Part shown: in pieces, positions 916 to 4,413 of the stretch
Layout of the letters: every line of letters begins with the position of its first letter
Numbering within the stretch: position 1 is the stretch's first letter
Source: a virus
Strand: one strand, 5' to 3'
Length of the DNA stretch: 22,251 nt
Virus record (IMG/VR): IMGVR_UViG_3300020160_002033
Span: 1-22,251 of that record
Notes under the pieces: model-generated
Databases searched by the model: none
What the model saw: only the letters and a program-made list of their open reading frames with translations
What the model was told of the DNA's origin: nothing
Translations under genes and position numbers: made by a program

Positions 916-1674
916 ATGAAAACAAAAAAACCAACCTCCAAAAAATGCTCAATCTGCGGAATTAAAAAACCATTAAGCCGATTTAATAAAAACCCTAGAA
1001 CAGAAGACAAGGTTGTTAATAAATGTAGGCTTTGTGTTGGCACTCCTGCACAGCCTAAACCACCTAAGTCTCCCAAGCCTCTCAAAAAAATCAAATCTCT
1101 AACCTCAAAAAAATGCTCATGCTGCAAAGAGGAGAAGCCCTTATCTAGTTTCTACCCCAAAAAAAAATCAAAACCAGAAGATCTAAATTGCTACTGCAAA
1201 TTCTGCCTCTACTCAAAAAGAACAAATTACACTGAATATTCTAGCGGCAAAAATGAAGACCCTGCAAGCCATCCTAAACGCAGCGGGTTTATTCGACAGC
1301 AAATAGCAATACAAACACTAGCAGCGTCGAAAATGCGCAACCCAAAAATGAATCATTATAGCGTGAGAATTGGCTGCACCGCAGAAGCTTTTAGAGATTA
1401 TATAGAATCAAAGTTTCAAGAAGGCATGTCTTGGAGCAATTATGGCGGCAAAAATGGTTGGGTATTGGATCACATTAAACCACTGTGTCGTTTCGACTTG
1501 TCAACTGATGAAGAAATCAATAAGGCTAGTCACTACTCCAATGTGCAGCCCTTGTGGCCCTATCAGAACAGCGCAAAAAGAGACTACTATACGCCAGGAC
1601 ATCCTATGGGTTGGTCAGGCTTTGACGTTTTATTAGAGCGCCAGGCATATTTAACGCCTATTAGTGTAACTTAA
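916..1674 (+). CDS. HNH endonuclease with two zinc-ribbon-like units (free-standing homing endonuclease candidate)
   Basis: The chosen start is ATG 916, preceded by AGGAAA; the frame is open upstream, but that part is low-complexity and crosses repeats. The 252-residue protein has two N-terminal Cys4 units of similar sequence: C11/C14 with C37/C40, and C67/C70 with C94/C97. Each begins SKKCS and has KPLS a few residues later. A Pro/Lys-rich linker separates them. The C-terminal part is an HNH nuclease: DH at 165-166 (GWVLDHIKPL), then H186 and N189 (ASHYSNVQPLW), N198 and K201. This matches the W-x-LDHI-x-PL ... NxQPL ... N-x-x-K pattern of phage HNH enzymes. Such genes commonly act as selfish homing elements that cut phage DNA. 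It lies directly before the tube-like gene. Its N-terminal coding region is rich in A and C and poor in G, unlike its neighbours, which may mark recent acquisition. Confidence 0.85.
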   Translation: MKTKKPTSKKCSICGIKKPLSRFNKNPRTEDKVVNKCRLCVGTPAQPKPPKSPKPLKKIKSLTSKKCSCCKEEKPLSSFYPKKKSKPEDLNCYCKFCLYSKRTNYTEYSSGKNEDPASHPKRSGFIRQQIAIQTLAASKMRNPKMNHYSVRIGCTAEAFRDYIESKFQEGMSWSNYGGKNGWVLDHIKPLCRFDLSTDEEINKASHYSNVQPLWPYQNSAKRDYYTPGHPMGWSGFDVLLERQAYLTPISVT

Positions 1675-1695
1675 TATTAAAGGTATAAAAAGTCA

Positions 1696-2610
1696 ATGTC
1701 CAAATTCATTCAATACACAAACGTTCCAGTATTTGCCAATTTTAGCAATATAGACACAGCACCAACTACTGGCGGCATTAGTGTGACAAGCGATTTGTTA
1801 GCGGCTAATAGTGTAAGCATAAATTTTGACACGCAATTAGAGCCGCGAAAATACTTGGGTAAAAATCCCATCAGCAATGACTATGCGCCCACTGGACCAT
1901 TACAAGCAAAGATTAGTCTTTCTTGGTTTCCTCTCATTGGTGAGAACGCTGCTTCTAGGCTCATCTCTCAAACAGGAGTATTAGCTTTAACAGGGGATTT
2001 TGTTAGCGGTCATCAGATTCGCGTTGGAAATTTCTTGTTTAAAGATTGTTACTTGAATTCTTATTCTATTCAAATTACCCCTTACCAACCTGTTTCCTTT
2101 ACTGCTGATTTTAACAGCTTTAATGTTAACGATATTGAGGGCACAACGTTCACTGGAATGGCTGGTGCGCCATCTCTACTCTCAGCGGCTGGAACAGGCG
2201 CTTATTTCGACGCTATGCACGCCCTAGCGGTAGGCATAGACGGAAGCTTACAACCTTTGCCGCAATCAAAGAAAAGCGTGCAAATTAGCACTAGCTGTTC
2301 TCGCTCAGCAGTCTATACTATTGGCAACAAGATTCCCGAAAGAGTTATTTTAAACAGTGTAGAAAGAACAGTAACAGTAGAGGGCGAGAACGTAGGAAAC
2401 ATTATTGATTTTAATGGTTCTGGAGACGGCACAAGTGTTAATTTTAAATTTTCACCTTTTAGGTATGTAGTTACTGGAAATAATTTTAATCCTACTGCTG
2501 ATTATAAGCTGCAAATATCGGTGAGTGGAAAGATTTCCGCACAGTCTCTCTCTGTTCAGCCAGGAAATACTTTAAATGGAAGCGTAACTATTAGGGAAAA
2601 TATTTTCTAA
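1696..2610 (+). CDS. Tube-like tail protein with two related halves (304 aa)
   Basis: Beta-rich, Ser/Thr/Asn-rich structural protein without signal or membrane segments. Two stretches resemble each other: residues about 39-82 (NSVSINFDTQLEPRKYLGKN onward) and about 193-234 (KSVQISTSCSRSAVYTIGNK onward). Each is followed, later in its half, by a similar strand pair (LNSYSIQITPYQPVS near 120-134; GKISAQSLSVQPGNT near 278-292). This suggests a duplicated tail-tube-type fold. The leftward gene at 16555-17709 shows the same arrangement, including a related segment (FITNYSVDASVGNFPS). Tail tube proteins stack as rings forming the tail lumen; assignment here rests on this pattern and phage context, not a search. 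AAAGG lies upstream of the ATG. The gene sits between the HNH gene and PhoH, apart from the other tail genes. Confidence 0.5.
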   Translation: MSKFIQYTNVPVFANFSNIDTAPTTGGISVTSDLLAANSVSINFDTQLEPRKYLGKNPISNDYAPTGPLQAKISLSWFPLIGENAASRLISQTGVLALTGDFVSGHQIRVGNFLFKDCYLNSYSIQITPYQPVSFTADFNSFNVNDIEGTTFTGMAGAPSLLSAAGTGAYFDAMHALAVGIDGSLQPLPQSKKSVQISTSCSRSAVYTIGNKIPERVILNSVERTVTVEGENVGNIIDFNGSGDGTSVNFKFSPFRYVVTGNNFNPTADYKLQISVSGKISAQSLSVQPGNTLNGSVTIRENIF

Positions 2611-2628
2611 ATGTGTAATCATTAATGA

Positions 2629-4413
2629 ATGGCTAAACCTAAAAAATCAGTGGACAATTCTGTTGAGATTGGTTCAATGGAACGTAAGATAGACTTCAAA
2701 CAGCGCAAGTTTAAATTCTCTTCTAAACAAAAAGAATTATTGGAAATTTGCCTCAACCCTGACACAAAAGCGATCTTTATCGCTGGGCCAGCGGGAAGTT
2801 CTAAAGCTCAACCTTTATCAGAACCTATTTTAACACCTAATGGGTGGGTAAATATGGGAGATATTAAAAAGGGCGATTTAGTAATGACTCCCCATGGAAC
2901 TCCTACAGAAGTGGAGGGAGTTTTCCCACAAGGAAACAAAGAAGTATTTAAAATAGAATTTAATGATGGATCATTCACTCATTGTTGTGATGACCATTTA
3001 TGGTTGACTCAAACTAACGCGGAAAGATACAATCGAAAAAAAGTAAAGGGCAGTAGAATCAAAAATGAGAAGATCGGTCAAGTTAGATCTTTAAAGGAGA
3101 TTAGAGAATCTTTATATGTTTCTGGAAGCACTCGACTGAATCATTATATCCCTATTACTAAACCAGTTCAATTTGAACCTAAACAGCATTTGATTCATCC
3201 ATACCTTTTAGGAGCTTTAATTGGAGATGGAGGTTTAACAGTTGGCACAAGATTCACAACAGCAGATCAAGAAATTGTAGAATCATTCGAAAAATTACTG
3301 CCCAATAATCATTCTATTCACCCATATAAAGATCAATACGCCTTTTCGATTGTAGGCAAAAATCAAAAAAATCTTTGCTGGGATGAAATAAAAAAGATGG
3401 GTTTAAATACCAAAAGTTATCTTAAATTTATTCCTGAAAATTATTTAATAGATTCTGTCGAAAATAGAGTATCTTTATTACAAGGATTAATGGATACTGA
3501 TGGCCATACAGATTCTCAAAAAGGTAGAGCTATTTATACCACAACTAGCCAAAGATTAGCTTTTGATGTTAAAGAATTAATAGAATCTTTGGGTGGAGTA
3601 GCAAGAATAACTTCATTTAGTCCTAAGTTTACTTATTTAGGCGAAAAGAAAATTGGAAAAATAGCTTACAAAGTAAATGTATCGTTACCCGCTCATATCA
3701 TTCCATTCTCTCTAAAAAGAAAAGTTGAAAAATATAAACCTTTAACTAAATATCTGCCAGCAAGAGCCGTCCGTTCTATCGAGCTTATTGGAGAGGAAGA
3801 GTGTCAATGTATTATGGTTAAAGATGATTCTCATTTGTATTTAACCAAAGATTATATTGTTACTCACAATACATACATGGCAATCTATGCAGCGCTCAAT
3901 TTACTTGCTTCTAAAAGAGAGTTAGAAATGACTTATATTCGCAGCATTGCTGAAAGCGCCGACAAAGGCATCGGCAGCTTGCCAGGAGATGTAAACGAAA
4001 AGTTTCTCCCTTTCTCTATTCCCCTGGACGATAAGCTGGAGGAGATTATTACTACTCCTACAGCAATTAATATGAAAAAAGATGGAGTCATTGGAGTCAT
4101 GCCAATCAACTTTGTTCGCGGCTCTAGCTGGACTAACAGAGTGGTTGTTGCTGACGAATCTCAGAACTTTTCTCATAAGGAATTAGTTACTCTTATTACT
4201 CGCATCGGTGAGAACGCAAAACTATTTATTTGCGGCGATTTAATGCAGAGCGATATTCGCATGAGCGGCTTTGAAGAAATGATTGAACTCTTTGACGATG
4301 AGGATAGTAAGTCTAAAGGTATTCATGTTTTTAAATTCGGAAACGAAGATATTTATCGTAGCGAAATTTTAAGATTTATCGTGGCTAAATTGGAGACTTT
4401 GCGCAAGCGTTAG
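2629..4413 (+). CDS. phoH: PhoH-like P-loop ATPase interrupted by an intein
   Basis: A 594-residue precursor. Residues 1-59 and 415-594 are host protein, and 60-414 is an intein. Removing it gives a 239-residue PhoH-like ATPase, a usual size for phage PhoH. The spliced P-loop is GPAGSSKT, with the intein between K59 and T415, so the uninterrupted ATPase cannot form without splicing. Walker B is VVADESQN (506-513), preceded by the conserved RGSSW (497-501); FICGDLMQ follows. PhoH proteins are cytoplasmic ATPases with a helicase-like core, widespread in phages, whose exact role is unsettled. The start ATG 2629 has no good Shine-Dalgarno sequence but a TGTGTAAT element 10-17 bases upstream. The small membrane-protein gene follows 13 bases after the stop. 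Confidence 0.92.
   Translation: MAKPKKSVDNSVEIGSMERKIDFKQRKFKFSSKQKELLEICLNPDTKAIFIAGPAGSSKAQPLSEPILTPNGWVNMGDIKKGDLVMTPHGTPTEVEGVFPQGNKEVFKIEFNDGSFTHCCDDHLWLTQTNAERYNRKKVKGSRIKNEKIGQVRSLKEIRESLYVSGSTRLNHYIPITKPVQFEPKQHLIHPYLLGALIGDGGLTVGTRFTTADQEIVESFEKLLPNNHSIHPYKDQYAFSIVGKNQKNLCWDEIKKMGLNTKSYLKFIPENYLIDSVENRVSLLQGLMDTDGHTDSQKGRAIYTTTSQRLAFDVKELIESLGGVARITSFSPKFTYLGEKKIGKIAYKVNVSLPAHIIPFSLKRKVEKYKPLTKYLPARAVRSIELIGEEECQCIMVKDDSHLYLTKDYIVTHNTYMAIYAALNLLASKRELEMTYIRSIAESADKGIGSLPGDVNEKFLPFSIPLDDKLEEIITTPTAINMKKDGVIGVMPINFVRGSSWTNRVVVADESQNFSHKELVTLITRIGENAKLFICGDLMQSDIRMSGFEEMIELFDDEDSKSKGIHVFKFGNEDIYRSEILRFIVAKLETLRKR
2806..3870 (+). mobile_element. Class 3-type intein with LAGLIDADG endonuclease in phoH
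   Basis: The element is 355 codons, in frame, inserted between Lys59 and Thr415 of the PhoH precursor. Intein residue 1 is Ala, not Cys/Ser, and the +1 extein residue is Thr. The C-terminus is VTHN, with penultimate His354 and terminal Asn355. The class 3 signature (Trp in block B, Cys in block F, Thr in block G) is present as W66 (DDHLWLT), C335 (QCIMV) and T353. Two LAGLIDADG motifs, LLGALIGDG (134-142) and LLQGLMDTDG (224-233), keep their acidic residues D141 and D232, so the homing endonuclease looks intact. Known class 3 inteins splice by attack of the block F Cys on the N-terminal junction. Assignment is from motifs; splicing was not tested. Confidence 0.9.

Follow-up and report, generated by a model that had tools for sequence, protein, structure and literature searches.

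The window analyzed here is the entire 22,251-base IMG/VR virus record IMGVR_UViG_3300020160_002033 (positions 1 to 22,251). It contains an open reading frame (2629-4413, plus strand) encoding 594 amino acids, of which residues 414-586 match the Pfam PhoH family above the cut-off (PF02562, 5e-34). The frame carries an insert of exactly 355 codons, which starts with AQPL, ends with VTHN, and is followed by a threonine (Thr+1). This insert splits the Walker A motif between its lysine and its threonine (GPAGSSK/T, with the slash marking the junction), and its excision in silico yields a PhoH of 239 amino acids carrying GPAGSSKTYMAIY, with Walker A restored as GPAGSSKT. A LAGLIDADG_3 domain (PF14528) was matched within the insert together with a pair of LAGLIDADG motifs, LLGALIGDG and LLQGLMDTDG; the catalytic Asp is intact in both, although the first Asp position of LLGALIGDG is degenerate, a trait shared with the other relatives. 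The cysteines of the insert are Cys60, 61, 191, 333, and 335. Of these, Cys61 lies in block B, three residues ahead of His64, at a position taken by Asp (DxxH) in the class 3 intein of M. smegmatis, which is a point against the class 3 reading. The features are collected in Table 1.

Table 1. Features of the interrupted phoH gene, with the counts in the family alignment given per 95 inteins.
Feature	Position	Strand	Basis
N-extein of PhoH, 59 aa, ends GPAGSSK	2629..2805	+	Layout as in intein-free L001, L016
Full-length class 3-type intein, 355 aa, A1 to N355	2806..3870	+	Sequence, PDB alignment, Pfam, family alignment, model
Ala1, no N-terminal nucleophile	2806..2808	+	A1 in 61/95
His64, block B catalytic His	2995..2997	+	95/95; aligns with DnaBi1 His65
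Trp66, block B Trp of WCT triad	3001..3003	+	94/95; aligns with DnaBi1 Trp67
First LAGLIDADG motif LLGALIGDG, Asp141	3205..3231	+	D141 in 90/95
Second LAGLIDADG motif LLQGLMDTDG, Asp230 and Asp232	3475..3504	+	PF14528 4.4e-9; D230, D232 in 95/95
Cys335, putative block F nucleophile of WCT triad	3808..3810	+	95/95; aligns with DnaBi1 Cys118
THN: Thr353 (WCT), penultimate His, terminal Asn	3862..3870	+	T 89 and S 6 of 95; N 95/95
C-extein of PhoH from Thr+1 (Walker A Thr), including stop codon	3871..4413	+	PF02562 5e-34

Upstream of phoH, at 652-1671 on the plus strand, lies an Endonuclease VII / HNH-like reading frame (PHROG 1035, 8e-18). No match to it was found in 13 related contigs, some of which carry the neighboring gene, and it is possibly a free-standing mobile nuclease.

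Two sister viral contigs, L001 and L016, harbor intein-free alleles with the exact empty site, each encoding a 239-residue PhoH with GPAGSSKTYMAIY. Their products are 95.4% (L001) and 96.2% (L016) identical in amino acids to the spliced window PhoH, the gene-wide DNA identity is 91-92%, and the downstream gene order in L001 is the same as in the window. The empty site thus fixes the boundaries of the insert independently of any intein motif. An initial annotation, made from the window alone, had described this insert, and its coordinates and residue numbers were all correct; Ala1, the THN end, and Thr+1 are present in the translation of the 355 codons, the Asp that it had called intact in the two LAGLIDADG motifs is kept in both (D141 and D232, with the PF14528 match), the interruption of GPAGSSK/T agrees with the empty site, and the intein-free alleles that it had proposed to look for in related phages exist. 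Silent differences are clustered beside the insertion site (window 2770-2810, GGAAGTTCTAAAACA versus GGTAGTAGTAAAACC in L001 and L016), which is suggestive of flank co-conversion but not significant: 4 such differences fall within 18 nt at the junction, and 6-9% of stretches elsewhere contain at least that many. The sister alleles also bear on the possibility that the intein is dead, or splices too poorly, and that PhoH has been lost or replaced by another copy. Class 3 inteins recognized in silico can indeed be non-functional, as is exemplified by Arthrobacter Arth_1007, which is reported to be a pseudogene (PMC3196547), but here the frame is open over all 355 codons, the catalytic residues and both endonuclease Asps are intact, and both exteins are still 95-96% identical to those of the intein-free sisters, which makes such decay very unlikely.

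Class 3 inteins are defined by the WCT triad, formed by a Trp in block B, a Cys in block F, and a Thr in block G (PMC5050341, PMC6195587); in M. smegmatis DnaBi1 (6bs8) the triad is Trp67/Cys118/Thr137 (PMC6195587). A sequence search of the PDB aligned W66, C335, and T353 of the window intein with these three residues, and the splicing region matched solved inteins with E-values of 3e-10 to 5e-7, the best match for the N-terminal block region being gp41-1 (3e-10, best chain 6riz). The HINT splicing blocks are in frame and are completed by the C-terminal Asn and a +1 nucleophile, as expected of an intein, and position 1 is without a Cys, Ser, or Thr nucleophile while the WCT triad is complete, as expected of class 3. 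The AlphaFold model of the intein (mean pLDDT 94.1) matched the folds of PI-SceI (1e-19), of the class 3 structures 6riy, 6rix, and 6bs8 (4e-6 to 2e-5), and of I-DmoI; with two motifs bearing the catalytic Asp and a matching fold, the central part qualifies as a LAGLIDADG homing endonuclease.

Residue conservation was considered in a family sample of 95 inteins; besides that of the window, it holds 89 inteins of viral contigs, a single Vibrio phage intein, and four found in phoH genes of mycobacteria. Cys335 is invariant, and no more than seven inteins have at position 1 a residue that might act as a nucleophile (Ser or Cys); the +1 residue is Thr in 81 and Ser in 14. One of the two family search patterns contained ECQCI and was therefore biased toward C335. 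However, residue 333 is Ala, Val, Thr, Ser, or others in most of the 95, with C335 still kept, so most members did not enter the sample through that pattern. Since the neighboring cysteines are not conserved (C333 in 28/95, C61 in 35/95), C335 is the likely functional cysteine. Chance is excluded as a source of the similarity by the E-values quoted above and by the hundreds of relatives. The assignment of the insert to class 3 is well supported by these alignments, and the initial annotation, which had made this call, was borne out: W66 and C335 fall inside blocks B and F, respectively, in the 6bs8 alignment, their lying outside being an outcome that it had named as fatal. Two further inteins, in L223 and L229 (each from 2501), start with Cys1 and yet retain both the THN end and the Cys of block F; such inteins could be intermediates between class 1 and class 3, bearing on the origin of class 3.

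The same residues might in principle serve a class 2-like route, in which the first nucleophile would be Thr+1, in direct attack on the Lys-Ala1 bond, and not the Cys of block F. Such a route is known for inteins without Cys or Ser at position 1 (PMC7664689), and Ala1 with a +1 nucleophile would fit it too. We consider it very improbable here, however, with the class 3-defining triad complete, C335 invariant in all 95 inteins, and class 3 DnaB inteins among the closest solved mini-inteins by both sequence and fold. A WCT triad engineered into a class 1 intein did not by itself give class 3 splicing (gp41-1_WCT, PMC7664689), so that the triad is a requirement for the mechanism and not a demonstration of it. 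The gp41-1 intein (6qaz, 6riz) is class 1 in its native form (Cys1, Phe65, Asp107), unlike the window intein, and the best-matching chain, 6riz, is an engineered WCT mutant. The mycobacterial DnaB inteins of class 3 (MsmDnaBi1, 6bs8; MchDnaB1, 6rix and 6riy) share with the window intein the WCT triad, Ala1, the block B His, the THN end, the P-loop insertion, and the HINT fold. In contrast, they are mini-inteins without an endonuclease, reside in a replicative helicase, and have Ser+1, whereas the window intein is full-length, carries LAGLIDADG motifs, resides in PhoH, and has Thr+1.

Our preferred reading, which we regard as highly probable, is that the Walker A motif of this phage PhoH hosts a mobile class 3 intein, equipped with a LAGLIDADG endonuclease and acting through Cys335 chemistry, splicing, and homing. 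Of this reading, the anatomy of the insert, its conserved residues, its fold as modeled, the existence of empty alleles, the sporadic distribution, and a phoH-associated lineage were shown directly, whereas the chemistry, splicing, and homing of the window intein are taken by analogy from characterized class 3 inteins. Cys335 of block F, aided by His64 and Thr353, would attack the Lys59-Ala1 bond to form a branched thioester, the N-extein would be transferred to Thr+1, cyclization of Asn355 would free the intein, and an O-to-N shift would leave GPAGSSKT in an intact 239-aa PhoH. With its Walker A Lys and Thr held apart by the insert, the precursor is expected to be unable to bind ATP normally and should be inactive before splicing. 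During co-infection, the endonuclease would let the intein spread to the phoH alleles of other phages that lack it; such LAGLIDADG-driven homing is likely by analogy, and the P-loop DNA is the putative recognition target of the endonuclease. As a special case of this reading, splicing might be conditional, with Cys60, Cys61, or Cys333 forming a redox switch with Cys335 that gates PhoH maturation. M. smegmatis DnaBi1 has such a Cys toggle and conditional splicing was proposed for it (PMC6195587), and the window intein has five cysteines (60, 61, 191, 333, 335), but the possible partners are not conserved in the family (C61 in 35 and C333 in 28 of the 95), and we regard the switch as improbable.

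A scan with the family alignment found at least 593 confirmed relatives in viral contigs. The insertion is mostly between the P-loop Lys and Thr of ATPases, helicase-like and terminase-like ones among them; a Lys precedes the intein in 80 of the 95 sampled members and a Thr follows it in 81. The initial annotation had called the mechanism rare, which is not supported: WCT inteins are very common at phage P-loops, and the window intein, although genuine, is nothing unusual within a large family of phage inteins. Class 3 inteins at the P-loops of phage terminases, helicases, and other ATPases (such as L002-L011 and L168) resemble it in their AQPL...ECQCI...THN/T layout, in bearing an endonuclease, and in their placement after the P-loop Lys. 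Their extein proteins, however, are not PhoH, and the window intein groups with PhoH P-loop inteins.

A search for the THN/TYM junction and the family scan revealed, among the matches listed, nine viral contigs with a further complete PhoH P-loop intein (L162, L128, L153, L165, L164, L167, L179, L192, L204). A Vibrio phage carries another, which brings the total besides the window to ten, and a partial one is present in L159. PhoH was confirmed by Pfam in those hosts tested. These inteins agree with that of the window in class and site and are 36-52% identical to it; the L162 intein is 52% identical and of equal length, and that of L164 has Ser+1. In Vibrio phage 1.161.O (MG592529; L015 3242-5689) the interrupted protein, NVP1161O_150, is a PIN-PhoH fusion, as is the host protein in L179, and is annotated only as a 'hedgehog/hint domain protein'. 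Phage searches that used two other PhoH-intein proteins as queries found no annotated PhoH P-loop intein beyond that of Vibrio phage 1.161.O. Several candidates were rejected: L147, L149-L152, L154-L155, L157-L158, L160, and L163 share THN/TYM, but their C-exteins are not PhoH; the junction matches in L156 and L161 are due to chance; and the match in Acinetobacter phage TaPaz (H9) is an intein in a protein annotated as a terminase, not PhoH.

PhoH inteins were also found at other positions. In L205 (ORF 565-2637) and L220 (ORF 1442-4150), a class 3-type intein starting with Pro1, not Ala1, follows the PhoH motif GFLPG, which is a third insertion site beside the P-loop and MRGR. Class 3 inteins in mycobacterial PhoH were published for M. 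fortuitum and M. xenopi (PMC6195587), which answers in part the question raised by the initial annotation: PhoH is a known host for this class, but in the mycobacterial genomes read the site is MRGR/T, not the P-loop. In these five genomes (L341-L345) the inteins lie at YMRGR/T; they share with the window intein the class, the host family, the AQP start, the THN/T end, and an endonuclease, but form a separate branch (100/100). Assuming that the inteins of M. fortuitum and M. xenopi match these relatives, the published kind of PhoH intein occupies another site. The PhoH P-loop was not found as an intein site in the literature searched, a scope outside which the surveys of Tori and Perler 2011 and Novikova 2016 fall.

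Among the matches listed, the nearest relatives of the window intein are other PhoH P-loop inteins. It pairs with that of L162 (99/97 in a 40-row tree and 98 in an 86-row tree), and a supported group of the 86-row tree (96) has nine PhoH P-loop inteins among its eleven members; deeper relations are not resolved in the 40-row tree. The inteins of L204 and the Vibrio phage are placed elsewhere, in a group with strong support, and monophyly of the eleven PhoH P-loop inteins was rejected (p-AU 5e-7). Judged by these trees, PhoH P-loop inteins form at least two separate lineages. Close intein-free partners exist in three PhoH subclades (window/L016, L162/L124, and L128/L129 with L087), and the inteins are scattered across the PhoH extein tree, which gives presence and absence, not gain versus loss. 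Homing inteins are usually recognized by this pairing of intein-bearing genes with close intein-free relatives, and the scattered distribution suggests, in the same sense, a homing element. On balance, we favor the view that the PhoH P-loop is a recurrent, previously undescribed class 3 site, colonized at least twice and independently, with one phoH-specialized lineage moving between distant phages and with at least three class 3 sites in PhoH (P-loop, GFLPG, and MRGR).

The understanding of class 3 chemistry is unchanged by the window intein. What it does is to extend the hosts of class 3 P-loop inteins to PhoH, a phage auxiliary ATPase. The phoH gene is in use as a marker of phage diversity, and its most conserved motif can be split by an insert of 1 kb, with possible failures of amplicon surveys or of annotation; the risk for the annotation of split phoH genes is illustrated by the Vibrio phage protein labeled only by its hint domain. 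Finally, the window and its sisters L001 and L016 provide natural intein-plus/intein-minus pairs for work on homing and splicing.
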